Source: Candidatus Rokuibacteriota bacterium (lineage in GTDB: Bacteria; Methylomirabilota; Methylomirabilia; Rokubacteriales; CSP1-6). Taken from it: a DNA stretch of 64,000 nt. Position 1 is the first letter of the stretch. Every line of letters begins with the position of its first letter. The notes beneath the pieces are model-generated. The model made no database searches and was not told the DNA's origin. It was given only the letters and a program-made list of their open reading frames with translations. Positions 1 to 14,455 of this stretch are shown here, piece after piece. A program made the translations under genes and the position numbers. Location of the stretch: contig JACPIQ010000035.1 in assembly GCA_016188005.1 (NCBI GenBank), forward strand, positions 1 through 64,000, read 5' to 3'.

Positions 1-366
1 GGCCTCGGCCTCACCGGTGACGACCGCGTCGGCGTACTGCAGGGCTTCCTCGAGGCGCATGGTGGCGTGGATGCCCCCCATGACCACCGGCACGTTCAGC
101 TCTCTGAACGTGGACGCGATCTCGTAGGCTCGCGGGGCCTGGGACGTGAACGCGGTAATCCCCACCAGATCCGGGCGCGGATAGCGCTGATAGTCGACGG
201 GACCGAGATTCTCATCGATCAACTCGACCGACCATTCCGCTGGCGTCAGGCGTGCAAGGACCATGAGGCTGAGCGGTTTCCAGGTCCGGTACCTGTTCAA
301 ACGGCTGGACCTGATCTTGGTGATGCTGACGACCGGGTTGCCCGGGTTGATGAGGTAGAGCAGCAT
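1..366 (-). CDS. B12-binding domain of a radical SAM protein (C-terminus cut by window edge)
   Basis: The 122 visible residues run from an ATG at 366, preceded by a good GAAGGAG Shine-Dalgarno, to the window edge. They form a cobalamin-binding-type Rossmann domain: MLLYLINPGNP at the start, LIDENLGPVDY, then DLVGITAFTSQAPRAYEIA and VVMGGIHATM, ending in VVTGEAEA. This layout is typical of the N-terminal domain of BchE-like B12-dependent radical SAM enzymes, whose CxxxCxxC cluster motif would follow beyond the window. The radical SAM half is therefore inferred. Substrate is not predictable; family members act in methylation, ring formation and hopanoid or lipid modification. It is separated from the next gene by 140 bases and reads away from the carboxylase operon. 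Confidence 0.8.
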   Translation of the reverse strand, partial: MLLYLINPGNPVVSITKIRSSRLNRYRTWKPLSLMVLARLTPAEWSVELIDENLGPVDYQRYPRPDLVGITAFTSQAPRAYEIASTFRELNVPVVMGGIHATMRLEEALQYADAVVTGEAEA

Positions 367-506: not shown

Positions 507-1370
507 TCACTGAAGCCCGTGGCGGGCGGCGAGGGCCTGGATCCGCGGGAAGCCGATGAACTCGTCGAAGTCGGCCTCGGGGGTGAGGCGGGGCGCGAGA
601 GCGCCGCGGTCTCCGTGGGCGCGGAAGGCCGCGAGGGTCTCCTGCACGGCGTGGTGGGCGGCGAAGAGCAGGAGGGAGTAGTAGAGGACGAGCTTGACGC
701 CCGCGGCCTCGTCCCGGGACACCGTCGAGCCCGGGGAGTCCACGGCGCAGAGCAGATGGGGCACGCGGGCGGCTACCTCGGCGAGGGCTGGGGTTCGCAC
801 GCCGGCGGGAAAGACCATGTCGGCGCCCGCGGCGCCATAGGCCAGGCAGCGGTCCACGGCCTCGTCGAGCCCCCCGCCCCCGAGCCAGCCCGCGTCGGTG
901 CGGGCGATGATGACGAAGTCCGGGTTTCGCCGCGCCTCCACCGCCGCCTTCACCTTCTCCACCATCTCGGCCTTGGGCAGGACACGGCCCGTCACGGGCA
1001 GGTGCTTGCCGAACTCGTGGTCCTCGAGGTGGATGCCCGCCACCCCCGCGCGCTCGAACTCGCCCACCGTGCGCCACACGGTGACGGCGCTGCCGAAGCC
1101 GTTCTCGCCGTCGGCGATGACCGGGATGCGCTCCACGGCTCCCACGACGGCCGCCGCCTGGTCCACCATCTCCCGCATGCTCACGAGCCCGGCATCGGGC
1201 AGCCCGACCCGGCTCGCCGCTGTCGCGTAGGAGCCGATGTAGACGGCGGAAAACCCGGCGCGCTCCACCAGCCTGGCGCTCACGGCGTCGTAGGCCCCTG
1301 GCGCCACGATGATCCCGGGCGCCCCCAGCAGCGCCCGCAATGCCCTGGGTCCACCCCCGGGGTGTGCCAC
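507..1370 (-). CDS. Isocitrate lyase/PEP mutase family protein
   Basis: This 287-residue (beta/alpha)8 protein starts with GTG directly after the TAG of the biotin carboxylase gene, so it is the last gene of that operon. APGAYDAVSARL (about 23-34), YIGSYATAAS and the metal-binding DGENGFG (88-94) match the PEP mutase/2-methylisocitrate lyase superfamily. The gating loop reads EDHEFGKHLP (116-125), where isocitrate and methylisocitrate lyases carry KRCGH with a catalytic Cys. With no Cys there, lyase activity on isocitrate-type substrates is doubtful; oxaloacetate decarboxylase-like or other C-C or C-P chemistry is possible. Family call is firm, reaction unknown. Its place after a carboxylase suggests processing of a small organic acid. 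Confidence 0.85.
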   Translation of the reverse strand: MAHPGGGPRALRALLGAPGIIVAPGAYDAVSARLVERAGFSAVYIGSYATAASRVGLPDAGLVSMREMVDQAAAVVGAVERIPVIADGENGFGSAVTVWRTVGEFERAGVAGIHLEDHEFGKHLPVTGRVLPKAEMVEKVKAAVEARRNPDFVIIARTDAGWLGGGGLDEAVDRCLAYGAAGADMVFPAGVRTPALAEVAARVPHLLCAVDSPGSTVSRDEAAGVKLVLYYSLLLFAAHHAVQETLAAFRAHGDRGALAPRLTPEADFDEFIGFPRIQALAARHGLQ

Positions 1371-3404
1371 CTACGCCTCTCCATCTTCTGCCGGCGCGAC
1401 GACCACCAGGAGGGCCCCTCCATCCACCTGCGCGCCCGCCTCGACGCGGACCTCGAGGACGCGGCCGGCGGCGACGGCGGTGACGTGATGTTCCATCTTC
1501 ATGGCCTCCAGCGTGACGAGCGTCCAGCCGGGCTCGACGAGATCGCCGACCGCCACCGAGACGGTGACGACCTTCCCGGGCATGGGCGCGGTGTGGGCGC
1601 CCCGCACCTGCTCGTGGCGGGGCTGGGGGAAGCGCGAGCTCTCGGTGAGGCGCACCTCGCCGGCCGCCCCCTGCACCCACCAGTGGTCAGCATGGGCGAG
1701 GAGCCGGATGCGGCAGCGCAGGCCGTCCACTTCGAGGTCCACGAGGGCGTCGTGGAGGCCGGCGGCCACCGGCGGAGCGTCCGTGCCGCCGCTCGCCGTG
1801 CTCACCACCTCGAGCCGCGCCCGCCCGCGCTCGCCCAGGCACTCCCAGTCGAACTCGCCGGCGCGGCCGCGCCGATAGCGCACCGCCACCTCGTCCGGAC
1901 CGTGTTGGTAGGTGACCTCCTGCATCGCGCTGGGGTTGTTGCGCCAGCCCGAGGGCAGGCTCCGCAGCACGCGGGCACCCGCGCGGCGATGCGCCTGGCC
2001 GCCGAGCGCCGCGGCGAGCGCCGCCCAGCGCAGCTCGGCGGCGGCGGGCTCGCGGCGGCGCGCCGGCTGGTGTCGCTCGATGAAGTCGGTGGTGGTGTCG
2101 CCGGCGAGGAAGGCCTCGTGGCGGAGCAGGCCCACCAGGAAGTCGCGGTTGGTGGGGACGCCGTGAAGCCGCAGCCGCTCGAGCACGGTGGCGAGCCTGA
2201 GGGCCGCCTCCGTGCGCGTGGCGGCATGCACGATGACCTTGGCGAGCATCGGGTCGAAGTGCACGGACACCTCGCTGCCCGCCACCACGCCCGAGTCGAA
2301 GCGCGCGCCGAGCCCGGCGGGCTCTTCCCAGGCCAGGAGGCGCCCGGCCGCGGGCAGGAAGTCATGGGCCGGGTCCTCGGCGTAGAGCCGCGCCTCGATG
2401 GCGTGCCCCTCGGCCCCGATCTCCTCCTGGCTCCGCTCGAGCCGCTCGCCCTGAGCGATGCGGAGCTGCTCGCGGACGAGATCGAGCCCGGTGATGGCCT
2501 CGGTGACCGGGTGCTCGACCTGGAGCCGCGTGTTGACTTCCAGGAAGTGGAAACGGCCCTGGCCGTCGAGGATGAACTCCACGGTGCCGGCGCTCTCGTA
2601 GCCCATGGCGCGCCCGGCCGCCACCGCGGCCTCGCAGATCCGCGCCCGCACCGCCGGGGTGAGCGCGGGCGAGGGCGCCTCCTCGACGATCTTCTGGTGG
2701 CGCCGCTGGATGGAGCACTCGCGCTCGAAGCAGTGGATGACCTGGCCGTGGCGGTCGCCCAGGATCTGGACCTCCACGTGGCGGATGCCCTCGAGATACG
2801 GCTCGAGGAAGACGCGGTCGTCGCCGAAGGCTCCCTGCGCCTCGCGCCGCGCGCTCTCGACGGCGGCGACGAGCTCCTCGGGGCGCCTCACGATCCGCAT
2901 CCCGCGCCCGCCCCCGCCCGCGGCGGCCTTGACGAGGAGCGGGTACTCGAGGCCGGCCTCCGCCGCCCGGGCGGCCTGGGCCGCGCTCTCCACCGCCACG
3001 GCGGGCAGCACGGGCACGCCGGCCCTGGCCATGAGCGCCTTGGCCAGGAGCTTGTCGCCCATGGCGCGGATGGTCTCGGGGCGCGGCCCCACCCACACCA
3101 GGCCGGCCTTGATGACGGCCTCGGCGAAGGCCCCGTTCTCGGCGAGGAAGCCATAGCCCGGGTGGACGCAGTCGGCCCCCGCGCGCCGGGCGGCCGCGAT
3201 CAGCCGGTCCGCGTCGAGGTAGGTCTCCGCCGCGACCGTGCCCCCCAGCGCCACGGCCAGGTCGGCCTCGGCGACGAAGGGGGCGTGGACATCGGGATCG
3301 GCATAGACGGCAACCGTGGCCAGCCCCATGCGCCGGGCGCTCCGGATGATCCGCCGCGCGATCTCTCCGCGGTTGGCGATGAGGAGTCTCGTGAGTGGAG
3401 GCAT
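1371..3404 (-). CDS. Acyl-CoA carboxylase, biotin carboxylase/BCCP subunit
   Basis: This is the 677-residue alpha subunit of a biotin-dependent acyl-CoA carboxylase. The N-terminal biotin carboxylase domain begins LLIANRGEIARRI and has the glycine-rich ATP loop KAAAGGGGRGMRI (about 158-170) and the FLEVNTRLQVEHPVTE motif. The C-terminal biotinyl domain has EAMKMEH with the biotin-accepting Lys near residue 636. It charges biotin with bicarbonate and ATP for the carboxyltransferase encoded just upstream, 4 bases away. Length and layout fit methylcrotonyl-, propionyl- or geranyl-CoA carboxylase alpha subunits; the partner looks most MCC-like. Cytoplasmic. Confidence 0.93.
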   Translation of the reverse strand: MPPLTRLLIANRGEIARRIIRSARRMGLATVAVYADPDVHAPFVAEADLAVALGGTVAAETYLDADRLIAAARRAGADCVHPGYGFLAENGAFAEAVIKAGLVWVGPRPETIRAMGDKLLAKALMARAGVPVLPAVAVESAAQAARAAEAGLEYPLLVKAAAGGGGRGMRIVRRPEELVAAVESARREAQGAFGDDRVFLEPYLEGIRHVEVQILGDRHGQVIHCFERECSIQRRHQKIVEEAPSPALTPAVRARICEAAVAAGRAMGYESAGTVEFILDGQGRFHFLEVNTRLQVEHPVTEAITGLDLVREQLRIAQGERLERSQEEIGAEGHAIEARLYAEDPAHDFLPAAGRLLAWEEPAGLGARFDSGVVAGSEVSVHFDPMLAKVIVHAATRTEAALRLATVLERLRLHGVPTNRDFLVGLLRHEAFLAGDTTTDFIERHQPARRREPAAAELRWAALAAALGGQAHRRAGARVLRSLPSGWRNNPSAMQEVTYQHGPDEVAVRYRRGRAGEFDWECLGERGRARLEVVSTASGGTDAPPVAAGLHDALVDLEVDGLRCRIRLLAHADHWWVQGAAGEVRLTESSRFPQPRHEQVRGAHTAPMPGKVVTVSVAVGDLVEPGWTLVTLEAMKMEHHVTAVAAGRVLEVRVEAGAQVDGGALLVVVAPAEDGEA

Positions 3405-3408
3405 GCGC

Positions 3409-5004
3409 TCACATCCTGAAGACGCCGAAGCCCGCCGCGCCGCGGACCTCGGCGCTGTGGCAGGCGCTCAGCGCGATGCCGAGCACGGTGCGCGTGTCCC
3501 GCGGATCGATGATGCCATCGTCCCAGATGCGCGCGGTGGCGAAGAGCGCGCTCGACTCGCCCTCGATCCGCTCCTCGACGGCCCGGCGCACCATGGCGTC
3601 CTGGGCCTCGTCGTACGGGCGCCCCGCGGACTCGGCCGCCTGGCGCTGGACGATGGACATGACGCCCGCCAGCTGCGCCGGGCCCATGACGGCGATCTTG
3701 TGGCTCGGCCAGGTGAAGACGAAGCGCGGGTCGTAGGCCCGCCCGCTCATGCCGTAGTTGCCGGCGCCATAGGAGGCGCCGATCATCACGGTGAGGTGCG
3801 GCACCGTCGAGTTGGTCACGGCGTTGATCATCTTGGCGCCGTCCTTGATGATGCCGCCGCGCTCGTAGGCGCGCCCCACCATGTAGCCGGTGATGTTCTG
3901 CAGGAACAGGAGGGGCACGTCGTGCTGGTTGGCGAGCTGGATGAACTGCGCGGCCTTCTCGGCCTCCTCGGAGAAGAGGATGCCGTTGTTGGCGAGGATC
4001 CCCACCGGGTAGCCGTGGATGGAGGCCCAGGCCGTCACCAGCGTCCGGCCGTAGAGCGGCTTGAACTCCTCGACCCGCGAGCCGTCCGTCACGCGGGCGA
4101 TGATCTCGCGCATCTCGAAGGGCTCGCGGAGATCGGCCGAGGCGATCCCCAGCAGGTCCTCGGGGTCGTGGACGGGCGGGTCCGCCGGCCGGGACGGCCC
4201 GGGACCGTGCTTCCGCCAGTTGAGGTGGGCGACGATGTCTCGCGCGATGCGGATGGCATCCGGCTCGTCCTGGGCCAGGTAGTCGGCGAGCCCCGACTCC
4301 CGGGCGTGCATCTCGGCGCCGCCGAGCTCCTCGTCGGTGGACTCCTCGCCCGTGGCCATCTTGACCAGCGGGGGCCCGGCCAGGAACACCTTGGAGCGCT
4401 CCTTGATGAAGATGGTGTAGTCGGACATGCCGGGCACATAGGCGCCGCCCGCGGTGCAAGAGCCAAAGACCAGCGAGAGCGTCGGGACGCGCTCGGCCGA
4501 CAGCCGCGTGATCTCGAAGAAGGTACGGCCGCCGGGGACGAAGATCTCGGCCTGGGTCGGCAGGTCGGCGCCACCGGACTCGGTGAGCTGGATCACGGGG
4601 AGGCGGTTGGCGCGCGCGATGTCGAAGGCGCGGAGCGTCTTCTTCACGGTGTAAGGGTTGAGCGACCCGCCCCGCACCGTCGGGTCGTTGCCGATGACGA
4701 GGCACTCGACGTCCGACACCACGCCGATGCCGGTGACCACCGCGGCCCCGACGGTGAAGTCCGTCCCCCAGGCCGCCAGGGGCGACAGCTCGAGGAAAGG
4801 GCTGTCGCGGTCCACGAGGAGCTCGATGCGCTCCCTGACCTGGAGCTTGCCGCGCTGGCGGTGGCGCTCGACGTAGCGCGCCCCGCCGCCCCCCCGCGCC
4901 AGCGCCAGCTGGCGGTCGATCTCGGCGAGCCGCTCGAGCATGGCGGCCCGGTTCCGGCGGAAGCGCTCGCTCCCGCGGTCCAGCGTCGTCGCGTACACCT
5001 GCAT
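3409..5004 (-). CDS. Acyl-CoA carboxylase, carboxyltransferase subunit (MccB-like)
   Basis: This 531-residue carboxyltransferase has an AGAGGAGG ribosome site just before its ATG at 5004. The N-terminal half contains NDPTVRGGSLNPYTVKK and GSCTAGGAYVPGMSDYTI; the C-terminal half has NNGILFSEEAEKAAQFI, GASYGAGNYGMSGRAY and FTWPSHKIAVMGPAQLAGV, the oxyanion-forming and CoA-binding regions of the crotonase-fold pair. The GSCTAGGAYVP and GNYGM motifs favour the methylcrotonyl/geranyl-CoA carboxylase group over propionyl-CoA carboxylase, but the substrate is inferred. It transfers CO2 from the biotin of the adjacent alpha subunit. A 292-base gap separates it from the upstream DUF6285 gene, so it may have its own promoter. 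Confidence 0.93.
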   Translation of the reverse strand: MQVYATTLDRGSERFRRNRAAMLERLAEIDRQLALARGGGGARYVERHRQRGKLQVRERIELLVDRDSPFLELSPLAAWGTDFTVGAAVVTGIGVVSDVECLVIGNDPTVRGGSLNPYTVKKTLRAFDIARANRLPVIQLTESGGADLPTQAEIFVPGGRTFFEITRLSAERVPTLSLVFGSCTAGGAYVPGMSDYTIFIKERSKVFLAGPPLVKMATGEESTDEELGGAEMHARESGLADYLAQDEPDAIRIARDIVAHLNWRKHGPGPSRPADPPVHDPEDLLGIASADLREPFEMREIIARVTDGSRVEEFKPLYGRTLVTAWASIHGYPVGILANNGILFSEEAEKAAQFIQLANQHDVPLLFLQNITGYMVGRAYERGGIIKDGAKMINAVTNSTVPHLTVMIGASYGAGNYGMSGRAYDPRFVFTWPSHKIAVMGPAQLAGVMSIVQRQAAESAGRPYDEAQDAMVRRAVEERIEGESSALFATARIWDDGIIDPRDTRTVLGIALSACHSAEVRGAAGFGVFRM

Positions 5005-5296
5005 CCCTGCCTCCTCTACTGGATCGCGCGGAACTCGGCAACGCCGGGGTCCGGAGGGCGGGTCCCGCGGGGGCGCCCTGTGGCGAGCCGTGTCGCCGCG
5101 CGAAGCGCAGGGCGGGGCGAGCGCGCGATCGCGGGTCGGCAGCCCTCGCGCCGCCCCCTCCGGGGGATCCGGGGGATGGGGGGTCGCGCTCGGCCCGCCC
5201 GAGCGAGGTGCGGCGTCCAGGCGAGCCACCTGGAGCGCGCCCGGGGGATCCGCCCTTCGGGCCCCGGCGCCTCGCGGGCAAGGTATCCCGCGGGGC
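5005..5296. other. 292-base GC-rich gap with a direct repeat
   Basis: No gene is supported here. The stretch is extremely GC-rich and contains a 12-base direct repeat, ccgggggatccg, at 5160-5171 and 5241-5252, about 81 bases apart, each flanked by GC-rich potential stems. It lies between two same-strand genes and could hold the promoter of the carboxylase pair or a terminator, but I see no convincing -35/-10 pair. Confidence 0.4.
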
Positions 5297-5734
5297 TCAT
5301 TCGTCGCCTCGTGACGCGGCGGCGGCCTCGGCGCGGAAGGCGGCGAGGACGGCCGGGTTGTTGACGGCGAGCTTCTCCGCCACGCGGGCCTCCACGTGAG
5401 CGACCACGCGCTGCCGCCACGGACCTTCGTCGGCGTCGCCCCGACGGATGCGCGCGCAGAGGCTCCGGTTGGCCTCCAGCACCGCCTGGCGGAGCGCCAT
5501 CGCATCCTCGGGCGCCGCCGCCGGCGGCTGCCCGAGCAGCTCGCGGAGCGCGGCGTGCTCGGCGCGGAGCCGGGCATCCTCACCCTCGGCTTCGCGCTCC
5601 ACGATCCGGAGGACGTTGAGCGCGATCTGCAGATGATACCGGAGCCGCGGGTCGGAGAGGGTGGGCAGGAGCTCGCGGGCGAGGAAGTCCCGCACGGCCT
5701 CGAGCGCCTCGGGAACGGACGGGCGGTCCTGCAT
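5297..5734 (-). CDS. DUF6285 domain protein
   Basis: This is a 145-residue, mostly helical protein with no signal peptide or membrane segment. The core LRYHLQIALNVLRIVEREAE (about 30-49) is followed by an acidic helix and a C-terminal RVAEKLAVNNPAVLAAF. I recognise it as DUF6285, a family I recall next to aminoglycoside-phosphotransferase-like genes in acyl-CoA clusters, as here: the kinase gene ends 25 bases upstream. By position and size it resembles LvaB, the small partner needed by the kinase LvaA in levulinate catabolism of Pseudomonas putida; that comparison is from memory and is inference. No catalytic motif is visible. Confidence 0.75.
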   Translation of the reverse strand: MQDRPSVPEALEAVRDFLARELLPTLSDPRLRYHLQIALNVLRIVEREAEGEDARLRAEHAALRELLGQPPAAAPEDAMALRQAVLEANRSLCARIRRGDADEGPWRQRVVAHVEARVAEKLAVNNPAVLAAFRAEAAAASRGDE

Positions 5735-5759
5735 GGCGCTCAGCGAGCCTCCATCCCGC

Positions 5760-6806
5760 TCAGCCCTCGCGCAGCAGGCGCATCAGCTCGTACTCGACCT
5801 CCGCGCAGTGGCGGCCGATGCTCGCCAGCTCGAGGCTCTGCTCGCGCCCGGAGAGGTGGCGGAAGGCCTGCGCGAGCGTGATGACGGCCCAGCGCACATT
5901 GGCGAAGACGTCCCAGTAATGCGCGGCCTCGGGATCGAAGCGCCGGCCGCCCGCCGCCGCGTACGCGGCGAGGAAGTGCTCCCGCGAGCCCAGCGCGGGG
6001 GCCCCGGGACGGTCGATGCTCCGCCAGAAGCGCATGCAGGCCCAGCCCACGTCCTCACCGGGATCACCGAGGTGCGTGAGCTCCCAGTCCAGCACCGCGC
6101 GTAGCCCCTCCGCGGGATCCACGGCGACATTGCCGAGGCGGTAGTCGCCGTGGACGGGGGCCAGCCACTCGCGGGGGGGGATGCGGCGGCCGAGCCAGCG
6201 GACCCCCAGCTCGAGCGCCGGATGGGGCTCGCCCAGCGCACGGAGCACGGCCTCGATCTCCTGCAGCTGGAACTCCATGGGGGCCTGGCCTGCCGCGGTG
6301 CCGGGCAGCCCGTCGAGCGCCTCGGCGGGCACGGCGTGCATCCGCGCCAGGGCCTCGGCCATCTGCCGGAGGAGCCGCGGACGCACGGCCGCGTAGGCGG
6401 GATCGGCCAGGAGCCGGCGGGCCACGGTCTCCCCCTGGACGCGCTCCATCAGGAGGCCCGGCGGCAGCCCGTGGGGGCGCCCCTCGGGAATACACCAGTA
6501 CGGCCTGGGCGAGGGGACCCCCGCGGCGTGCATGGCCGCGATGACGCGCAGCTCGTCCTCGCGGGGGAGGCGCGAGTAGAGGATCCGGGCGCCCAAGTCC
6601 GCCATGAGAATGAGCCGGTGGGCTCCCGCCCAGGCCCCGCCCGCGATCTCGACGTCGAGCGCCCAGGCCTCCCGCATGGTGCCGCCGGGAAGCCGCCACA
6701 GCGCGCGGATCGCCGCGGGATGGCCGGCCTCGGCGGCGATGAAAGCCTCGAGCCCCGCACGGAGCGACTCCGCCGCGGTGGCGGGAGCGGCCGTCCCGGC
6801 ACTCAC
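5760..6806 (-). CDS. APH-family phosphotransferase, possible 4-hydroxyacyl-CoA kinase
   Basis: A 348-residue kinase of the aminoglycoside phosphotransferase/choline kinase fold. The catalytic loop HGDYRLGN (219-226) and the metal-binding DWE (240-242) are intact, so it should be active. I chose the GTG at 6806 because it gives the usual family length; the frame is open further upstream into the dehydrogenase gene and the ribosome site is weak, so the start is uncertain. In ACAD10/ACAD11 of animals and LvaA/LvaC of Pseudomonas, such a kinase phosphorylates the 4-hydroxyl of a 4-hydroxyacyl-CoA and a dedicated acyl-CoA dehydrogenase-like enzyme then removes the phosphate. The next gene upstream encodes exactly that dehydrogenase type. 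Antibiotic modification is unlikely in this context. Confidence 0.85.
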   Translation of the reverse strand: MSAGTAAPATAAESLRAGLEAFIAAEAGHPAAIRALWRLPGGTMREAWALDVEIAGGAWAGAHRLILMADLGARILYSRLPREDELRVIAAMHAAGVPSPRPYWCIPEGRPHGLPPGLLMERVQGETVARRLLADPAYAAVRPRLLRQMAEALARMHAVPAEALDGLPGTAAGQAPMEFQLQEIEAVLRALGEPHPALELGVRWLGRRIPPREWLAPVHGDYRLGNVAVDPAEGLRAVLDWELTHLGDPGEDVGWACMRFWRSIDRPGAPALGSREHFLAAYAAAGGRRFDPEAAHYWDVFANVRWAVITLAQAFRHLSGREQSLELASIGRHCAEVEYELMRLLREG

Positions 6807-6837
6807 CGCGGGGCTCGCGGCGCCGCGCGGCGGCCAG

Positions 6838-8034
6838 TCACGGGCAATGGCGGATCTCGTGCTCGGCGAGCTTGGCCTTGTGGACCTCGTCGGCCCCGTC
6901 GCCCAGGCGCAGGATGCGGGCGTAGCGCCACATCGCGGCCAGCGGCACATCGTCGGTGACGCCCAGCGCCCCGTGGATCTGGATCGCACGGTCCACCACG
7001 CGGCACGCCGTCTGGGCGCAGAGCACCTTGGCCATGGAGATGACGGGCCAGGCCTCCTTCTTCCCCATGGTGTCCATGGCCCAGGCGGCGTGGAGCATCA
7101 CGAGTCTCGCGGCGTGCACCTCGATCCGCGAGGTGGCGATCATGTCCTGGACCATCTGCTTCTCGGCGAGCGCGCCCCCCACGACCACGCGGGTCCTCGC
7201 GCGGCGGGCCATCATCTCCACGGCGCGGTCAGCCATGCCGACGGCGCGCATGCAGTGGTGGATGCGGCCGGGCCCGAGCCGCGCCTGGGCGACGGCGAAG
7301 CCCTCGCCCTCCCCGCCCAGGAGCGCGCTCTGCGGCACGCGCACGCCCTCGAAGGCCACCTCGCACTCGCCGGGACCGCTGACGTGGCCGAACACCGGCA
7401 GCGCCCGCACCACCCGCACGCCGGGCGTGTCGATGGGCACCACGAGGAGGCTCACCCGCTTGTGGCGCGAGGCCGCCGGATCGGTCACCGCCATGACGAG
7501 GAGGACGCGGGCGTGCATGGCGCCAGTGGTGAACCACTTCCGTCCGGTGATGACGTAGTGACCGCCGTCCCGCACGGCCCGCGTCTGGAGCTGCGTCGGG
7601 TCGGAGCCCGGCGTCATGGGCTCGGTCATGGAGAAGCCGCTCCGGATCTTCCCCGCCAGCAGCGGCTCGAGCCATTGCGCCTTCTGCTCGGGGGTGCCGT
7701 ACTGGGCGAGGATCTCCATGTTGCCGGTGTCCGGGGCCGAGCAGTTGAACACCTCCGAGGCCCAGACGACACGCCCCATGATGGCGGCCAGCGGCGCGTA
7801 CTCGAGATTCGTGAGCCCGGGGCCATGGGCCGGGTTCGGCAGGAAGAAGTTCCAGAGCTCCGCGCCGCGCGCCAGCTCCTTGAGCTCATCGAGGAGCGCG
7901 GGCTGGTGGTGCCGGTCCCCCGAGGCCTCGATGGCCTCGTAGTAGGCGCGCTCGTTCGGATAGACGAAGCGCTCCATGAACTCGGCGAGCTTCTTCGAGA
8001 GCTCCGTGACCCTGGCGCTGGGGGTGAAGTCCAT
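6838..8034 (-). CDS. Acyl-CoA dehydrogenase of the ACAD11/LvaC type
   Basis: This 398-residue flavoprotein starts at an ATG with an upstream GAGGAG. It has the FAD/substrate motifs GFSMTEPMTPGSDP and YVITGRKWFTTGAMH, and the C-terminal QIHGALGVTDDVPLA. Where ordinary acyl-CoA dehydrogenases have YEGT with the catalytic Glu, this protein reads RLGDGADEVH (376-385), placing Asp at that site. I recall almost the same string (RLADGPDEVH) in human ACAD11. With the kinase immediately downstream this suggests a phosphate-eliminating role on 4-phosphoacyl-CoA rather than simple alpha,beta-oxidation. The family assignment is seen in the sequence; the reaction is inference. Confidence 0.9.
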   Translation of the reverse strand: MDFTPSARVTELSKKLAEFMERFVYPNERAYYEAIEASGDRHHQPALLDELKELARGAELWNFFLPNPAHGPGLTNLEYAPLAAIMGRVVWASEVFNCSAPDTGNMEILAQYGTPEQKAQWLEPLLAGKIRSGFSMTEPMTPGSDPTQLQTRAVRDGGHYVITGRKWFTTGAMHARVLLVMAVTDPAASRHKRVSLLVVPIDTPGVRVVRALPVFGHVSGPGECEVAFEGVRVPQSALLGGEGEGFAVAQARLGPGRIHHCMRAVGMADRAVEMMARRARTRVVVGGALAEKQMVQDMIATSRIEVHAARLVMLHAAWAMDTMGKKEAWPVISMAKVLCAQTACRVVDRAIQIHGALGVTDDVPLAAMWRYARILRLGDGADEVHKAKLAEHEIRHCP

Positions 8035-8068
8035 GCCTGTCTCCTCGGTCGGTGTGGGACGCGGGCGC

Positions 8069-9211
8069 TCAGAGGAGCCCCAGGCTCCGCGCGATGACGC
8101 TCAGCTGGATCTCGTTGGTGCCCTCGCCGATCCAGGCCTCGGGGGCGTCCCGGTAGAGGCGCGCCACCTTCATCTCCTCCATGTAGCCGGCCCCGCCATG
8201 GAGCAGGAGCGCCTCGCTCGTGACGCGCACGGCCGTCTCGCTGGCCAGGTACTTGGCCATGGAGGCCTCGCGGATGCACTCGCGCCCCGCCATGTGGAGC
8301 CGGGCCGCACGGTAGATCATCAGGCGGGCGGCGTCCACCCGCGCCGCCATGTCGGCGATCTTGAAGGCCACCGCCTGGAAGCTCCCGATGGGCTTGCCGA
8401 ACGCCTGCCGCTCTCCCGCGTAGCGAAGGATCGCCTCGTAGGCCTCCTGGGCCAGGCCCAGCCCCCGGTTGGCGACGAGGATGCGCCCCTCGGTGAGCGT
8501 CGCCTTGAGCTGGCCGAGCCCCTGCCCCACCTGCCCCAGGACGCGGCGGGCGGGGACGCGCACGTCCTCGAGGCTCATGAAGGCCGTGGAGGAGGAGTGG
8601 TTGCCCACCTTCACGAGGTCGCGCGCGCTGACGCCGGGGTCTCTCGTCTCCACGAGAAAGAGCGAGAGCGCGTCGACCGAGCGTCCCTCCCCGGTGCGTG
8701 CCGCCAGCACCATGAAGTCGGCGATGGACCCGTTGGTGATGTAGAGCTTGCTGCCGTTCAGCACCCAGTCGCCGCCGTCGCGGCGCGCCCGGGTCTTGAT
8801 GCCGCGGATGTCGCTTCCGGCATCCGGCTCGGTGAGGCCGAAGGCACCGATCCGCTCGCCGCGCAGCGCCGGCACGAGGAACTCGCGCTGCTGCTCCTCC
8901 GTCCCGATGCGCAGGACGGGGCCGGCGGCCAGGTGCTGGTGGGCGAAGACGCCCGCGGAGACGCCGGCGGCGGAGCGCGTCAGCTCCTCGTAGAAGATGC
9001 AGGCCGTGAGCAGATCGGCCCCCCCGCCGCCGACGGCCTCGGGGAAGTTCACCGCGAGGAAGCCGCCGTCGCGGAGCACCCCGTAGACCTCCCGCGGGAA
9101 GCGGCGCTCACGCTCGCCCGCCTCGGCGAGCGGCGCGATCCTGGCGGTGACGAACCGCCGGAACGCGTCCCTGAACTCCCGGTGCTCCCGCTCGAGGCCG
9201 AAGTCTTCCAT
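8069..9211 (-). CDS. Acyl-CoA dehydrogenase
   Basis: A 380-residue acyl-CoA dehydrogenase of ordinary type. It shows GAFGLTEPDAGSDIRGIKT, WVLNGSKLYITNG, the arginine-containing RQAFGKPIGSFQAVAFKIAD, and a C-terminal IGEGTNEIQLSVIAR with the expected catalytic Glu. It would oxidise a short or branched acyl-CoA to the 2-enoyl-CoA and pass electrons to ETF. It sits 34 bases upstream of the ACAD11-like gene and 10 bases downstream of the SDR gene, so it is co-transcribed with both. Having both enzymes in one operon suggests that one does desaturation and the other phosphate elimination. Confidence 0.9.
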   Translation of the reverse strand: MEDFGLEREHREFRDAFRRFVTARIAPLAEAGERERRFPREVYGVLRDGGFLAVNFPEAVGGGGADLLTACIFYEELTRSAAGVSAGVFAHQHLAAGPVLRIGTEEQQREFLVPALRGERIGAFGLTEPDAGSDIRGIKTRARRDGGDWVLNGSKLYITNGSIADFMVLAARTGEGRSVDALSLFLVETRDPGVSARDLVKVGNHSSSTAFMSLEDVRVPARRVLGQVGQGLGQLKATLTEGRILVANRGLGLAQEAYEAILRYAGERQAFGKPIGSFQAVAFKIADMAARVDAARLMIYRAARLHMAGRECIREASMAKYLASETAVRVTSEALLLHGGAGYMEEMKVARLYRDAPEAWIGEGTNEIQLSVIARSLGLL

Positions 9212-9221
9212 GGGGTCGCCC

Positions 9222-9992
9222 CTACCAGGTGACGGTCTCGCCGCCGTCGATGTAGACGGTCTGGCCGGTCATGAAGTCGGAGCCCGAAGAGGCCAGGTAC
9301 ACCGCCAGCGGTCCCATCTCGTCGGGCTCCGCCAGCCGCCGCGCGGGGATCTTGGACAGGATGAGGTCGCGGACGCGCGGCTCCATCATCTTCTCCCGGG
9401 AGAAGTCGGTCCTGAGATAGCCGGGGGCCAGGCAGTTGACCTGGATGTTGTGGCGCGCCCACTCGATGGCCAAGCAGCGCGTGAGGGCGTCCACTCCGGC
9501 CTTGCTCACGCAGTAGGCGCTGTAGCGCGGCACGCCCAGCCGCCCCCACATGGAGCCGACGTTGATGATCTTTCCCCGCCCCCGCGCGATCATCGAGGGC
9601 GCCACGGCGCGGCAGCAGCGGAACATCGCGGTGAGGTTGGTCCCGAGGATCTCCTCCCAGTCCGCGTCGGTGAGCTCGACGAACCGCTTCTCCAGGTTGA
9701 TCCCCGCGTTGTTGACGAGGATGTCGAGCGACCCGAGCCCCTCCTCCACGGCGGCCACCGTGGCGGCGATCTGATCGCCCCGCGTCACGTCCAGCGGAAA
9801 GGCGCGCGCCTGCCCGCCCGCCTCGCGGATACAGGCCGCGGTGTCCTCGACCCCTTCCACCGAGCGCGCGGCGCAGGCCACCGCGGCGCCGGCGGCACCC
9901 AGCGCCAGCGCGAGGGCGCGGCCGAGCCCGCGGCTGGCCCCGGTCACCAGCGCCACCCGTCCCTGGAGTGACAGCGCCTCCTGCGGTTTCAC
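9222..9992 (-). CDS. Short-chain dehydrogenase/reductase
   Basis: A 256-residue classical SDR. The cofactor loop is TGASRGLG (about 17-24), followed by NNAGINLEKRFVELTD, the catalytic Ser in INVGSMWGRLGVPRYSAYC with the YxxxK Tyr (YCVSK), and the C-terminal GQTVYIDGGETVTW. The GTG at 9992 is chosen because GGAGGT lies just upstream and the protein then has normal length. It begins the minus-strand catabolic operon, divergent from the TetR gene. In the levulinate pathway the equivalent enzyme LvaD reduces the 4-oxo group; here a 3- or 4-keto/hydroxyacyl-CoA is a reasonable guess. Confidence 0.9.
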   Translation of the reverse strand: MKPQEALSLQGRVALVTGASRGLGRALALALGAAGAAVACAARSVEGVEDTAACIREAGGQARAFPLDVTRGDQIAATVAAVEEGLGSLDILVNNAGINLEKRFVELTDADWEEILGTNLTAMFRCCRAVAPSMIARGRGKIINVGSMWGRLGVPRYSAYCVSKAGVDALTRCLAIEWARHNIQVNCLAPGYLRTDFSREKMMEPRVRDLILSKIPARRLAEPDEMGPLAVYLASSGSDFMTGQTVYIDGGETVTW

Positions 9993-10039: not shown

Positions 10040-10053
10040 ACTGACTGGTCAGT
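10040..10053. promoter_or_regulatory. Palindromic operator candidate (actgac-tg-gtcagt)
   Basis: The 14 bases form a perfect inverted repeat with 6-base arms and a 2-base centre, located 48 bases upstream of the SDR start in the divergent region shared with the TetR gene. TetR-family regulators of acyl-CoA catabolism commonly bind such GAC(N)GTC palindromes, so this is a likely site for the neighbouring regulator. Confidence 0.6.
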
Positions 10054-10160: not shown

Positions 10161-10174
10161 ACTGAACGATTAGT
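10161..10174. promoter_or_regulatory. Imperfect palindrome upstream of the TetR gene
   Basis: The sequence actgaacgattagt pairs at five of seven positions, 21 bases before the TetR start. It resembles degenerate TetR-family operators and shares ACTGA with the palindrome at 10040-10053. It could mediate autoregulation. Assignment is tentative. Confidence 0.35.
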
Positions 10175-10195: not shown

Positions 10196-10864
10196 ATGCG
10201 CAAGCGCAAAGCGGCACAGCGGGGCGGCACGCACCTGACGCGCGAACGGATCCTGGCGGTGAGCGGGAGGGTGTTCAACCAGCGTGGCTATCACGGCACG
10301 ACGCTGGACGACATCGCCCGCGCCCTCGGCGTCACGAAGGCGGCGCTGTACTACCACGTCAAGAACAAGGAGGAGCTGCTCTTCCAGTGCCATCAGCTGG
10401 CGCTCGACATCGGCATGGAGGGCTTCCACCTGGCGCTGGCCCAGCCGGGGCCGCCGGACGAGCAGCTTCGCGCCGCGCTGGCCCACTACATCGAGGGGAT
10501 GGCCGACCAGCTCAAGGGCACGGTGGTGCTGCTCGAGCAGGGGGCCCTGTCGCCCCCCCATCACCGCCGCATCGTGCGCGGCCGCGACGAGTACGAGCAG
10601 GCGCTGCGCAGGATGATCGCCGCGGGCATCACCGCCGGCGTCTTCGTCCCCTGCGATCCCAAGCTCGTGGGCTTCGCCATCCTCGGCGCGGTGCACTGGA
10701 TCCCCAAGTGGTACCACCCCGCCGGGCCGAGCCCGGCGCGCGAGATCGCCGAGGCCTTCGCGACCTATCTCGTCCGCGGGCTGACCAAGCAACCGTCTCC
10801 CGAGCTGCCGGCTCCCCTGCGGGCCGGGGCGGAGAGCGCCCCTCTCGATGACCACTCCGCCTGA
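10196..10864 (+). CDS. TetR/AcrR family transcriptional regulator
   Basis: A 222-residue TetR-type repressor. The N-terminal helix-turn-helix covers RERILAVSGRVFNQRGYHGT, TLDDIARALGVTKAALYYHV and KNKEELL (about 16-62), the textbook HTH of this family. The C-terminal ligand domain includes an IEGMADQLKG helix typical of fatty-acid-responsive members. It is divergent from the SDR-led operon, overlaps the following mutase gene by 17 bases and has palindromic sites nearby, so it probably controls both operons in response to an acyl-CoA. That regulatory role is inference from position. Confidence 0.92.
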   Translation: MRKRKAAQRGGTHLTRERILAVSGRVFNQRGYHGTTLDDIARALGVTKAALYYHVKNKEELLFQCHQLALDIGMEGFHLALAQPGPPDEQLRAALAHYIEGMADQLKGTVVLLEQGALSPPHHRRIVRGRDEYEQALRRMIAAGITAGVFVPCDPKLVGFAILGAVHWIPKWYHPAGPSPAREIAEAFATYLVRGLTKQPSPELPAPLRAGAESAPLDDHSA

Positions 10865-12539
10865 CGCCTCCCGCCGGCCCGAGGGCCCCCGCAAGGGCCA
10901 CCTCGAGGCCTACTTCGAGAAGCCCGCGCGGCTCAGGACCTGGTCGGGCATCGAGGTGAAGCCCGTCTACCGGCCCGAGGACGTGGCCGGCACCTACCGG
11001 GACCGCCTGGGCGATCCGGGCCAGTTCCCGTACGCGCGCGGCATCCACGCCGACATGTACCGCGGGAAGTACTGGACCCGGCGCGAGGTGTGCGGCTACG
11101 GCGGCCCGGAGGAGACGAACCGGCGGATGAAGTTCCTGCTCGCCCAGGGCGCCTCGGGGCTCAACGTCATCTTCGACATCCCGACCATGACCGGGATGGA
11201 CGCCGACCACCCGATGGTGGAGGAAGAGGTGGGGGTCCAGGGCACCTCGCTGGCAACCGTCGAGGACATGGAAACGCTCATGGAGGGCCTGCCGCTGGAC
11301 GGCATCAGCATGTCCATCGTCGTGACCTCCCACGCGGCGCCGGTCGTGCTGGCCATGTACCTCGCGGTGGCGCGCAAGCGCGGCCTGCCGCTCGACCGGC
11401 TGCGCGGCACGATCCAGAACGACCCCCTGCACCACCGTTTCTGCGGCTACCCGCCCGCCTACTCGCCGCTGAATCTCGGGCTCAAGACGGCGGTGGACTG
11501 CCTCGAGTTCTGCGCCCGCCAGATGCCGTACTGGTACCCCATCAACGTCAACGCCTACGATCTCCGCGAGGAGGGGCTGGGCGCCGCGGAGGAGATCGGG
11601 TTCTCCTTCGCCATGGCCCGCACCTACATCGACCGCGCCCTCGAGCGGGGGCTTGCCATCGACGAGCTGGCCCCGCGCATGGTCTTCTACTGCTCGGCCC
11701 ACATCGACCTGCTCGAGGAGGTGGCGAAGTTCCGCGCCATGCGGCGGATGTGGGCCCGCATGCTCCGCGAGGAGTACGGCGCGCGGGACCCGCGCTCCTG
11801 GCAGTTCAAGTTCGGCGTCCACACCGCGGGCGTCTCACTGGTGCCCCAGCAGCCGCTCAACAACATCGTGCGCGTCGCCTACGAGGCGCTGGCCGCCGTG
11901 CTCGGGGGGGCCCAGTCGCTGCACTGCTGCTCCTACGACGAGCCCATCTCGCTGCCCACGGAGCAAGCCCATCAGATCGCCATCCGCACCCAGCAGATCC
12001 TGGCCTACGAGGTGGGCGCGGCGAACGCGGCCGACCCGCTGGGCGGCTCCTACCTCATCGAGGCCCTCACCGACCGGCTGGAGACGGACGCGCGCGCCAT
12101 CCTCGGCCGCATCGCCGAGCAGGGCGGCATGTACCGCGCCATCGAGACGGGCTGGGTGGACCAGGAGCTGGAGAACGCGGCCTACCGCTATCAGCAGGAG
12201 GTGGAGCGGCGCCAGCGCATCATCGTGGGCGCCAATGCCTTCAGCGTGCCGCCCGAGCAGGACCACGAGGTGCCGGCTCACCCGCGCCCGTCGGCCACCG
12301 AGGTCCGCGCGCGTCTCGACGGCCTCAAGCGCTTCCGCGAGCGCCGCGACGCGGCCGCGGTGACGGCCGCGCTGGAGAGGCTTCGAGGCGAGGCCGGCCG
12401 CGGCGAGCGCCACAACCTGATCCCCTGCCTGGTGGACGTGGTCGCTGCCGGCGCCACGCTGGGCGAGGCCGTGGGCGTGATGCGCGAAGCCTATGGGCAT
12501 GCGTACGATCCGGCCGGCATGGTCCGCTCCGTCCTCTGA
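10848..12539 (+). CDS. B12-dependent acyl-CoA mutase large subunit, atypical active site
   Basis: A 563-residue protein of the methylmalonyl-CoA mutase catalytic (TIM barrel) family without a B12 domain. Family landmarks are clear: GYGGPEETNRRMKFLL (83-98), GTIQND (187-192), PQQPLNNIVRVAYEALAAVL and DPLGGSYLIE. Key substrate positions are changed. Tyr89 of the Propionibacterium enzyme corresponds to Val81. The segment holding Arg207 is replaced by PLHHRFCGYPPAYSP (193-207), with no Arg at the aligned position. Tyr243-His244 becomes Tyr237-Asp238 (VNAYDLREEG). These residues bind the carboxylate or assist catalysis, so methylmalonyl-CoA is an unlikely substrate. It pairs with the B12 subunit 4 bases downstream and overlaps the TetR gene. 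The alignment was done by eye against the second mutase of this window and remembered family sequences. Confidence 0.88.
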   Translation: MTTPPDASRRPEGPRKGHLEAYFEKPARLRTWSGIEVKPVYRPEDVAGTYRDRLGDPGQFPYARGIHADMYRGKYWTRREVCGYGGPEETNRRMKFLLAQGASGLNVIFDIPTMTGMDADHPMVEEEVGVQGTSLATVEDMETLMEGLPLDGISMSIVVTSHAAPVVLAMYLAVARKRGLPLDRLRGTIQNDPLHHRFCGYPPAYSPLNLGLKTAVDCLEFCARQMPYWYPINVNAYDLREEGLGAAEEIGFSFAMARTYIDRALERGLAIDELAPRMVFYCSAHIDLLEEVAKFRAMRRMWARMLREEYGARDPRSWQFKFGVHTAGVSLVPQQPLNNIVRVAYEALAAVLGGAQSLHCCSYDEPISLPTEQAHQIAIRTQQILAYEVGAANAADPLGGSYLIEALTDRLETDARAILGRIAEQGGMYRAIETGWVDQELENAAYRYQQEVERRQRIIVGANAFSVPPEQDHEVPAHPRPSATEVRARLDGLKRFRERRDAAAVTAALERLRGEAGRGERHNLIPCLVDVVAAGATLGEAVGVMREAYGHAYDPAGMVRSVL

Positions 12540-12543
12540 GCCC

Positions 12544-12936
12544 GTGTCCGCCATCAAGGTGCTGCTCGGCAAGGTGAGCATGGACGGCCACGACCGCGGC
12601 GTGCGCGTGCTGGCGCGGCTCCTGCGTGATGCGGGGATGGAGGTCGTCTACCTCGGCAAGTTCCTCCCCCACGAGGCGGTGATCGAGGCCGCCATCCAGG
12701 AGAATGCCCAGGTGGTGGGGCTGTCCTTCCTCTCGGGCGAGCACGCCTCGCACACGCGGCGCTTCGCCCGGGCGCTCCGGAGCCGCGGCCTCACGGAGGT
12801 CCTCTTCCTGGTGGGCGGGGTCATCCCGCGGCAGGACATCGCCGAGCTCCTCGAGGCCGGCGCCGACGGCGTCTTCGTGGCGGGCACTCCCGTGGAGGAG
12901 GTCGTGGGCTTCATCCGCGAGCGGGTCGGCGCCTGA
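12544..12936 (+). CDS. Cobalamin-binding small subunit of acyl-CoA mutase
   Basis: A 130-residue stand-alone B12-binding domain. The GTG start at 12544 gives VSAIKVLLGKVSMDGHDRG, with the DxHxxG motif at 14-19 and His16 as the lower cobalt ligand. LSFLSGEH supplies the SxL motif and LVGGVIP the GG motif, all three signatures of base-off B12 binding. It follows the mutase large subunit by 4 bases, so the two are probably translationally coupled and form the holoenzyme, as in isobutyryl- and 2-hydroxyisobutyryl-CoA mutases. It may also serve the large subunit encoded at 55393, which has no B12 partner nearby. Confidence 0.93.
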   Translation: MSAIKVLLGKVSMDGHDRGVRVLARLLRDAGMEVVYLGKFLPHEAVIEAAIQENAQVVGLSFLSGEHASHTRRFARALRSRGLTEVLFLVGGVIPRQDIAELLEAGADGVFVAGTPVEEVVGFIRERVGA

Positions 12937-12949
12937 GGAGGCAGCGGGC

Positions 12950-14455
12950 ATGACGAGTCTCGGTGGCTTCGCGCAGCAGCAGGCCCGGCGGTACGGGGAC
13001 AGGACGCTCTTCATCTGCGGAGAGGAGCAGGTCAGCTACCGCGACTACGACGCCAGGACCGACCGGCTGGCGGGCGGGCTGGCCACCCTGGGCCTGGGCC
13101 CCGCCGACCGGATGGCCGTGCTCCTCCCCAACGGCCTCCCCATCCTCGAGGCCTATGTGGGGGCGGCCAAGCTCGGAGCCGTCTCGGTGCCGCTCAATCC
13201 GATGTTCACGCCGCGGGAGATCGAGTACGTCGTGAACAACTCGCGGTCGAAGGTCCTCGTGACCTCCCCCCGGGACGCCGAGCGGGTCCAGGCCGCCCGC
13301 GACCGGATGCCGTCCCTGGCCCACGTGGTGGTGGCGGGGGAGGCCGTGCCGGGCACGCGCCCCTACGCGGCCGTGGCGGCCGGCTCGCCGCCGGCCGCGC
13401 CCCCCCGCGTGGACGGTGACGACGTGGCGATGATCCTCTACACCTCGGGGACCACGGGGCACCCCAAGGGGGCCAGGCTCACGCACGCCGGGCTCCTCGA
13501 GAATGCGGCCGCGGTGGTCCGGGCGGTGGGCTTCCGCGACTCGGATCGGTCGCTCTGCATCCTGCCGCTCTTCCACGCCTTCGCCATCGCCTTCGACTAT
13601 CTCCAGATGATGACCGCGGGCGCCAGCAGCGTCATCGTCGAGCGCTTCGACGCGGGCGTGGCGCTCCGTCTGATCGAGCGCCACCGCGCCACGGTGCTCG
13701 TGGGGGTGCCCACCATGTTCATCTACATCCTCCGCCACCCCGACCGGCCGCGGCACGACCTCTCGTCGCTCCGGATCGGCGACACGGGCGGCGGCCCCGT
13801 GCCGACGGCGCTCAAGACCGAGTACGAGCGCGACATCGGCATGGTGCTCCTCGAGAGCTACGGCCTCACCGAGGCCTCGCCCGTGGTGACCATCGAGCGC
13901 CCCGGACTGCCGCGGCGCGAGGGGGCCTGCGGCCTCACCCTGCCCGGGATGGAGACGAAGGTGGTGGACGGGAGCGGCCAGGAGGTCCCCCCGGGGGAGC
14001 TGGGCGAGCTGCTGATGCGCGGCCCCAACGTCATGAAGGGCTACTTCGAGATGCCCGAGGCCACGGCGCGCGCCATCGTGGACGGGTGGCTCCACACCGG
14101 CGACCTCATGCGCAAGGATGCCGACGGGTACGTCTACATGGTGGACCGCCTCAAGCACATGATCATCTGCGGGGGCTACAATATCTACCCCAAGGAGATC
14201 GAGAACGTGCTCCACGACCACCCGGCCGTGCTCGAGTGCGCGGTGGTGGGCATGCCCGATGCCGACAAGGGCGAGATCCCCAAGGCCTGCATCGTGCTCC
14301 GCGAGGGCGCGCGCGCCACCGAGACCGAGATCCGGGAGTTCTGCCGCGAGTCCCTCGCGGCCTACAAGGTGCCGCGGCTCGTCGAGTTCATGGCGAGCCT
14401 GCCCAAGACCGCCACCGGCAAGATCCGCAAGGGGGAACTCAGCGGAGCCGGCTGA
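12950..14455 (+). CDS. AMP-binding acyl-CoA ligase
   Basis: A 501-residue ANL-superfamily ligase, with GAGGAGG upstream of the ATG at 12950. The phosphate loop YTSGTTGHPKGA, the A5 motif ESYGLTEASP, GWLHTGDLMRKDADGYVYMVDR and the C-terminal catalytic Lys in PKTATGKIRKGEL are intact. It activates a carboxylic acid to its CoA thioester with ATP. It is the last gene of the TetR-mutase operon and could be the entry step for this island, as LvaE is in levulinate use. Chain length and substrate cannot be read from sequence; the length and motifs resemble medium/long-chain ligases. Confidence 0.93.
   Translation: MTSLGGFAQQQARRYGDRTLFICGEEQVSYRDYDARTDRLAGGLATLGLGPADRMAVLLPNGLPILEAYVGAAKLGAVSVPLNPMFTPREIEYVVNNSRSKVLVTSPRDAERVQAARDRMPSLAHVVVAGEAVPGTRPYAAVAAGSPPAAPPRVDGDDVAMILYTSGTTGHPKGARLTHAGLLENAAAVVRAVGFRDSDRSLCILPLFHAFAIAFDYLQMMTAGASSVIVERFDAGVALRLIERHRATVLVGVPTMFIYILRHPDRPRHDLSSLRIGDTGGGPVPTALKTEYERDIGMVLLESYGLTEASPVVTIERPGLPRREGACGLTLPGMETKVVDGSGQEVPPGELGELLMRGPNVMKGYFEMPEATARAIVDGWLHTGDLMRKDADGYVYMVDRLKHMIICGGYNIYPKEIENVLHDHPAVLECAVVGMPDADKGEIPKACIVLREGARATETEIREFCRESLAAYKVPRLVEFMASLPKTATGKIRKGELSGAG

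Follow-up and report, generated by a model that had tools for sequence, protein, structure and literature searches.

A five-gene set in DNA of Candidatus Rokuibacteriota, a soil-type bacterium, most likely serves, to judge from its sequence, to remove the hydroxyl group of a 4-hydroxy acid by phosphorylation and expulsion of the phosphate. We analyzed positions 1-64,000 of contig JACPIQ010000035.1 (the window, to whose full length all window coordinates refer), in which the five genes lie between 5297 and 9992, all on the minus strand, in the order given by an initial annotation and with gaps of ∼10-35 bp inside the set. They encode a short-chain dehydrogenase/reductase (SDR), an acyl-CoA dehydrogenase (ACAD) with glutamate at the catalytic position, an Asp-type ACAD, an APH-fold kinase and a DUF6285 protein. 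With a probability that we put at about 0.8, the set would be a variant of the Lva/ACAD10-ACAD11 route, in which a two-part kinase phosphorylates the 4-hydroxyl and the Asp-type ACAD eliminates the phosphate.

Relationship of DUF6285 to LvaB

The DUF6285 protein of the window matches PF19802 with 71.6 bits against a cut-off of 28.1. A tblastn search from a Pseudomonadaceae DUF6285 protein led to a plasmid gene annotated as lvaB, "4-hydroxypentanoyl-CoA kinase subunit LvaB", and its product, WP_015270461.1, which is RefSeq-named lvaB on a Pseudomonas aeruginosa plasmid and is not the P. putida KT2440 sequence, served as our LvaB reference. The surroundings of this gene (locus L275) hold a PrpR-type regulator, a kinase, lvaB, an ACAD, an SDR, an acyl-CoA synthetase, a DUF485 protein and an acetate symporter, so that the operon is intact and its composition matches the published lvaR-ABCDEFG (PMC6692424). 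The reference LvaB, whose 118 residues are consistent with the published 12 kDa, matches PF19802 with 85.3 bits (E 4.8e-24), is recovered with 84 bits by a profile of 34 DUF6285 sequences from outside the Pseudomonadaceae, and aligns with the window protein by BLASTP at 30.5% identity over 131 positions (E 1.3e-7). LvaB is a homolog of DUF6285. The proposal in the initial annotation that DUF6285 is the partner of the kinase gains support, the RefSeq-named lvaB gene product being itself a DUF6285 protein.

PMC6692424 states that growth of P. putida on levulinate requires each of lvaA, lvaB and lvaC, that LvaB binds LvaA, and that the role of LvaB was published in 2017. The hope that the kinase would give DUF6285 a function is therefore borne out as regards the link to the LvaB family, but the role is not new; what was already known is the partner role of LvaB in P. 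putida, and what is new is its breadth. Pfam had not connected DUF6285 with LvaB, our literature search found no paper naming DUF6285, and within the literature searched the connection seems as yet unwritten. An AlphaFold2 model of the window protein (mean predicted local distance difference test score (pLDDT) 87.6) is all helical, with six helices, and Foldseek returned no PDB match with E below 1; a non-catalytic helical partner of this kind could help in assembly or in binding the substrate. Hence, DUF6285 is the LvaB family, predicted to supply the partner of 4-hydroxyacyl-CoA kinases of the LvaA type.

We found DUF6285 in 10 of 95 genomes from the phylum, in 9 of 369 from a class sample of Gammaproteobacteria, in 5 of 201 from a sample of Chloroflexota and in 14 of 148 from Pseudomonadaceae, and it is present in Thermus too. 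We read 45 distinct DUF6285 genes from several phyla with their surroundings, one of which lies at a contig end and leaves 44 that can be judged. In all 44, this neighborhood survey, which the initial annotation had recommended, showed an APH kinase as the immediate upstream gene, read from the same strand. The gap between the two genes is at most 120 bp in 42 of them (25 bp in the window) and wider in L055 and in L005, whose kinase has a broken frame. Kinase and DUF6285 are even fused in a single open frame in L049 (5914-7338), L050 (5849-7279) and L059 (5839-7323). An ACAD with the motif R....R..H.MR (R-HxMR) lies within the stretch at 29 DUF6285 loci. None of the examined loci with an ACAD10/11-like kinase had DUF6285 next to it. 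On a plasmid of Cupriavidus pinatubonensis (L279:4039-10751), the kinase-DUF6285 pair stands near a dapA-like lyase, an indolepyruvate ferredoxin oxidoreductase and an SDR; the annotation of this interval includes no ACAD, and the pair thus has a different context there.

The Kinase and the Asp-type Dehydrogenase

By BLASTP, the window kinase and the LvaA of the annotated lva operon share 38.7% identity. Its HGD and DWE motifs are intact, as claimed earlier (H219-D221-N226 and D240-W-E), and a residue table shows the catalytic His, Asp, Arg and Asn and the DWE motif all retained. In a tree of 74 kinases, a single branch (support 100) separates 43 DUF6285-linked sequences, which form one clade, from 31 others, a split that may be sharpened by the collection of the two sets with different queries (DUF6285 matches versus ACAD matches). 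The 31 without DUF6285 take in mouse ACAD11 and the kinases of Burkholderia, Cupriavidus and Deinococcus that accompany LvaC-like ACADs. Median identity to the ACAD11 kinase is 25% for the DUF6285-linked kinases, compared with 42% for the others. The DUF6285-linked clade contains the window kinase and also the L200 kinase, which is 88% identical to that of the annotated lva operon. Neither sequence-based ground for refutation named in the initial annotation (no homology between DUF6285 and LvaB, or a kinase grouping with true aminoglycoside kinases) was borne out. An AlphaFold2 model of the window kinase built from five sequences had a mean pLDDT of 54 and was not used.

The Asp-type ACAD carries the sequence RLGDGADEVH, as first reported, and the first Asp of this motif (residue 379) is aligned to Asp753, the catalytic residue of mouse ACAD11, for which the 8v3v chain has Asn. 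The protein matches mouse ACAD11 at 44% identity (E 1.7e-105), and all four diagnostic residues are present, Arg-252, His-260 and Arg-263 (of the R-HCMR helix) and Asp-379 corresponding to R626, H634, R637 and D753 of mouse ACAD11, for which the PDB-chain numbering is one lower. These ACAD11 residues have been modeled as the holders of the 4-phospho group and the base, and mutating them abolished phosphate removal (PMC12440821). ACADs bearing the signature form a single clade (support 99) that includes the window protein, and within the tree the Rokubacterial ACADs are the sister of the ACAD10/11-like branch (support 100). The window ACAD is closer to ACAD10/11 than to LvaC, the ACAD of the lva operon (34.9%).

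Conservation and Proposed Route

The module is real and conserved. The cluster is retained, with its neighboring mutase and carboxylase, in two related Rokubacteria (L002 and L003), and the ratio of nonsynonymous to synonymous substitution rates (dN/dS) against these is 0.11-0.32 across the five module genes; the 0.22-0.24 of the kinase reflects purifying selection.

In the route that we propose, a 4-hydroxyacyl-CoA would come from the SDR or from preceding steps; the SDR would interconvert the 4-keto and 4-hydroxy forms, or may work elsewhere. The APH protein would join the DUF6285 protein in a complex of the LvaA-LvaB type that phosphorylates the 4-hydroxyl of the acyl-CoA. The Asp-type ACAD would then eliminate the phosphate, giving a 2-enoyl-CoA for β-oxidation with no net oxidation. 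We infer the complex in the Rokubacterial host, the reaction itself and 4-hydroxyacyl-CoA as the substrate from the likenesses set out above.

Two sets of observations weigh against this route. The β3 arginine of the kinase (VLR motif) is replaced in the window by Met-68 (codon 6603-6605), and the position is Leu or Met in 9 of 9 Rokubacterial rows, whereas it is Arg in the other 35 of the 44 DUF6285-clade kinases and invariant in the 30 comparison kinases having letters at that position. Because of this replacement, the activity or the phosphate donor of the Rokubacterial kinases could differ. In addition, five loci (L049, L050, L057, L063 and L197) carry instead a separate clade of Glu-type ACADs without the phosphate-binding residues; therefore, the substrate cannot be read from kinase-DUF6285 linkage by itself, and part of the DUF6285 family may have another partner reaction. 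The β3 arginine is a common, not a defining, trait of LvaA-type kinases, and the window kinase is predicted to phosphorylate 4-hydroxyacyl-CoA.

Flanking Genes and the Nature of the Substrate

The downstream carboxylase pair (carboxyltransferase and biotin carboxylase) is present as claimed, and so are the mutase and the ligase on the divergent side, together with a B12-binding subunit between mutase and ligase that had been overlooked. In a PDB sequence search, the carboxyltransferase scored 579 bits with the β subunit of methylcrotonyl-CoA carboxylase (MCC), 496 with that of geranyl-CoA carboxylase and 273 with the best-scoring propionyl-CoA carboxylase in the PCC branch. By these scores the carboxylase is closest to MCC and not to propionyl-CoA carboxylase, and we reject the suggested processing of propionyl-CoA by this enzyme. 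The mutase large subunit is nearest to 2-hydroxyisobutyryl-CoA mutase (4r3u, 415 bits, versus 323 for methylmalonyl-CoA mutase) and has Val at the position of Ile90 and Ile at that of Asp117, which we take to be key, diagnostic residues of the pocket of that enzyme. The mutase perhaps has a specificity of its own. An MCC-type carboxylase together with a B12 mutase hints at a branched acid, and the natural substrate is possibly of this type. In two Gammaproteobacterial loci (L052:7565-11077 and L053:2672-6172), a long opposite-strand frame with 31% identity to the mutase adjoins the kinase-DUF6285 pair, a second case of a mutase beside such a module.

These neighbors bear on the most serious alternative, still a clearly less probable one, in which the kinase-DUF6285 pair acts on some other hydroxyacyl-CoA (5-hydroxy, branched, or a tertiary alcohol made by the mutase) and an analogous elimination by the Asp-type ACAD feeds the MCC-type carboxylase. 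A mutase nearest to 2-hydroxyisobutyryl-CoA mutase yet lacking the residues presumed to be critical there, an MCC-like carboxylase nearby and the retention of both in the two nearest Rokubacteria speak for it. In the other Rokubacterial genera sampled, however, neither mutase nor carboxylase was seen next to the module, and both may serve a side pathway. Moreover, ACAD10 has been tested with 4-, 5- and 6-hydroxyhexanoate, and the phospho-intermediate is described as arising from 4-hydroxy acids (PMC11342911). A more specific proposal, which we regard as speculative, is a new catabolic route for a branched acid that joins the B12 mutase, the CoA ligase and the MCC-type carboxylase to the LvaAB-type kinase and the sister of ACAD10/11; the hydroxyl would be lost before or after carboxylation, and the kinase, lacking the β3 arginine, would depend on DUF6285 to bind the nucleotide or the substrate.

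We consider it improbable that the Rokubacterial kinase has lost its ordinary activity and that the module does something else, such as sensing CoA esters. The absence of the β3 arginine from every Rokubacterial sequence would accord with such a loss, but retention of the His-x-Asp, Asn and DWE residues and the purifying selection on the kinase argue against it.

Comparison with Known Systems

The statement that the set mirrors the lva operon of Pseudomonas holds for the LvaA/ACAD11-like kinase, the phosphate-eliminating ACAD and the DUF6285 partner. Both systems have a kinase of the same clade with DUF6285/LvaB directly downstream, an ACAD of the R-HCMR-Asp type and an SDR. The remainder of the likeness does not hold, since the window has a TetR regulator, a second ACAD, the MCC-type carboxylase, the B12 mutase and a divergent ligase, has another gene order and lacks levulinate transporter genes, and its ACAD belongs to another branch. 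Among the window proteins examined, none was a PrpR/sigma54 regulator, an adjacent LvaE, a DUF485 protein or an acetate symporter (ActP) of the kinds seen at L275. The Rokubacterial locus is not a levulinate operon, and its origin as a plain lva operon transferred into Rokubacteria is very unlikely: the same kinds of protein do occur, at 39.7% identity to LvaD for the SDR and at the lower values to LvaA, LvaC and LvaB given above, but the regulator, the missing transport genes, the divergent ligase and the additional enzymes tell against transfer, as does an ACAD nearer to ACAD10/11 (44%) than to that of the lva operon (35%). An identity of LvaC of 62% to ACAD10 and 56% to ACAD11 has been published (PMC11342911), which differs from the 34% (50% similar) that we found between mouse ACAD11 and the ACAD of the annotated plasmid lva operon, a sequence other than that of KT2440.

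With mammalian ACAD10/ACAD11 and the bacterial kinase-ACAD pairs, the window shares the sister relationship of its ACAD and all four diagnostic residues; unlike them, it has a kinase of the DUF6285-linked clade (∼26% identical to the ACAD11 kinase), separate polypeptides and DUF6285 itself. The TTHB023 (PfmR) operon of Thermus thermophilus has the same run of SDR, ACAD (HCMR), kinase and DUF6285 under control of a TetR repressor, but it adds a histidine phosphatase and has no carboxylase or mutase alongside. The Thermus SDR, ACAD and kinase genes belong to a fatty-acid operon repressed by PfmR (PMC7022988). Split large and B12 mutase subunits adjoining a CoA ligase recall the HcmAB (2-hydroxyisobutyryl-CoA mutase) loci, from which the window mutase differs in its diagnostic active-site residues. 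The cluster of P. citronellolis LA18T is described as lacking lvaB (PMC6692424); two lva-like clusters with the LA18T type of gene order (L204 and L278) have DUF6285 between the kinase and a histidine phosphatase, so that lvaB of LA18T may have been overlooked.

The reading of the APH protein as a kinase of aminoglycosides or of another antibiotic, present by chance, can be dismissed for practical purposes. The Pfam APH family does take in resistance enzymes, but the protein scores 23-25 bits with NCBIfam resistance models, whose cut-offs are 205-650. Its closest relatives of solved structure are 9o56 ("aminoglycoside phosphotransferase"), 3dxp (a kinase labeled acyl-CoA dehydrogenase) and ACAD11, and it falls in the DUF6285-linked clade that holds the kinase type of annotated lva operons.

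Putative Regulatory Sites and Other Features

The features of the region are collected in Table 1. Two conserved, palindrome-like 14-bp sites with the consensus ACTGAMYGRTYAGT lie in the divergent promoter region between the SDR and TetR genes; the consensus has 3 matches in the window against 0.09 expected (both strands, at most 1 mismatch), and the sites are likely TetR operators. The longest open reading frame of the ligase runs into the gene of the B12 subunit, and the ligase probably begins close to 12950 in reality. A fragment of another protein with a B12-binding domain occupies the left end of the window (1-366). PADLOC gave no matches.

Table 1. Genes and putative operator sites in and around the five-gene set
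Feature	Position	Strand	Evidence
Phosphoenolpyruvate mutase/methylisocitrate-lyase-like protein	507-1370	-	
Biotin carboxylase/biotin carboxyl carrier protein subunit with MCC-alpha BT domain	1371-3404	-	Pfam
Carboxyltransferase subunit, methylcrotonyl/geranyl-CoA-type carboxylase	3409-5007	-	PDB sequence search
DUF6285 protein, LvaB family, predicted kinase partner subunit	5297-5734	-	PF19802, E 9.3e-20
APH-fold kinase, LvaA/DUF6285-linked clade, predicted 4-hydroxyacyl-CoA kinase	5760-6806	-	PF01636, 1.4e-29
ACAD10/11-type (Asp-type) acyl-CoA dehydrogenase	6838-8034	-	Mouse ACAD11 match, aligned residues, tree
Acyl-CoA dehydrogenase, Glu at catalytic position	8069-9211	-	Pfam; active-site column T-R-V-R-E
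Short-chain dehydrogenase/reductase	9222-9992	-	Pfam, 2.7e-64; BLASTP to LvaD
Putative TetR operator ACTGACTGGTCAGT	10040-10053	+	Alignment, pattern search; two relatives identical but for one base
Second putative TetR operator ACTGAACGATTAGT	10161-10174	+	Alignment, pattern search
TetR-family regulator (TetR_C_24)	10196-10864	+	Pfam
B12-dependent acyl-CoA mutase large subunit	10848-12539	+	Nearest 2-hydroxyisobutyryl-CoA mutase (4r3u)
B12-binding small subunit of mutase	12493-12936	+	PF02310, 3e-26; TIGR00640 above cut-off
Acyl-CoA ligase	12704-14455	+	PF00501, 1.3e-98, match from residue 91 onward

Significance

DUF6285, listed in Pfam as of "unknown function", could be given a new name as the LvaB-type partner that serves 4-hydroxyacyl-CoA kinases in several phyla. 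It becomes testable why one kinase clade needs this partner and the ACAD10/11-like clade, to which the human enzymes belong, can do without it. The pairing of a kinase-DUF6285 unit with an HCMR/Asp ACAD offers an annotation marker for genes now called aminoglycoside phosphotransferases, and the catabolism of 4-hydroxy acids would be extended to Rokubacteria.

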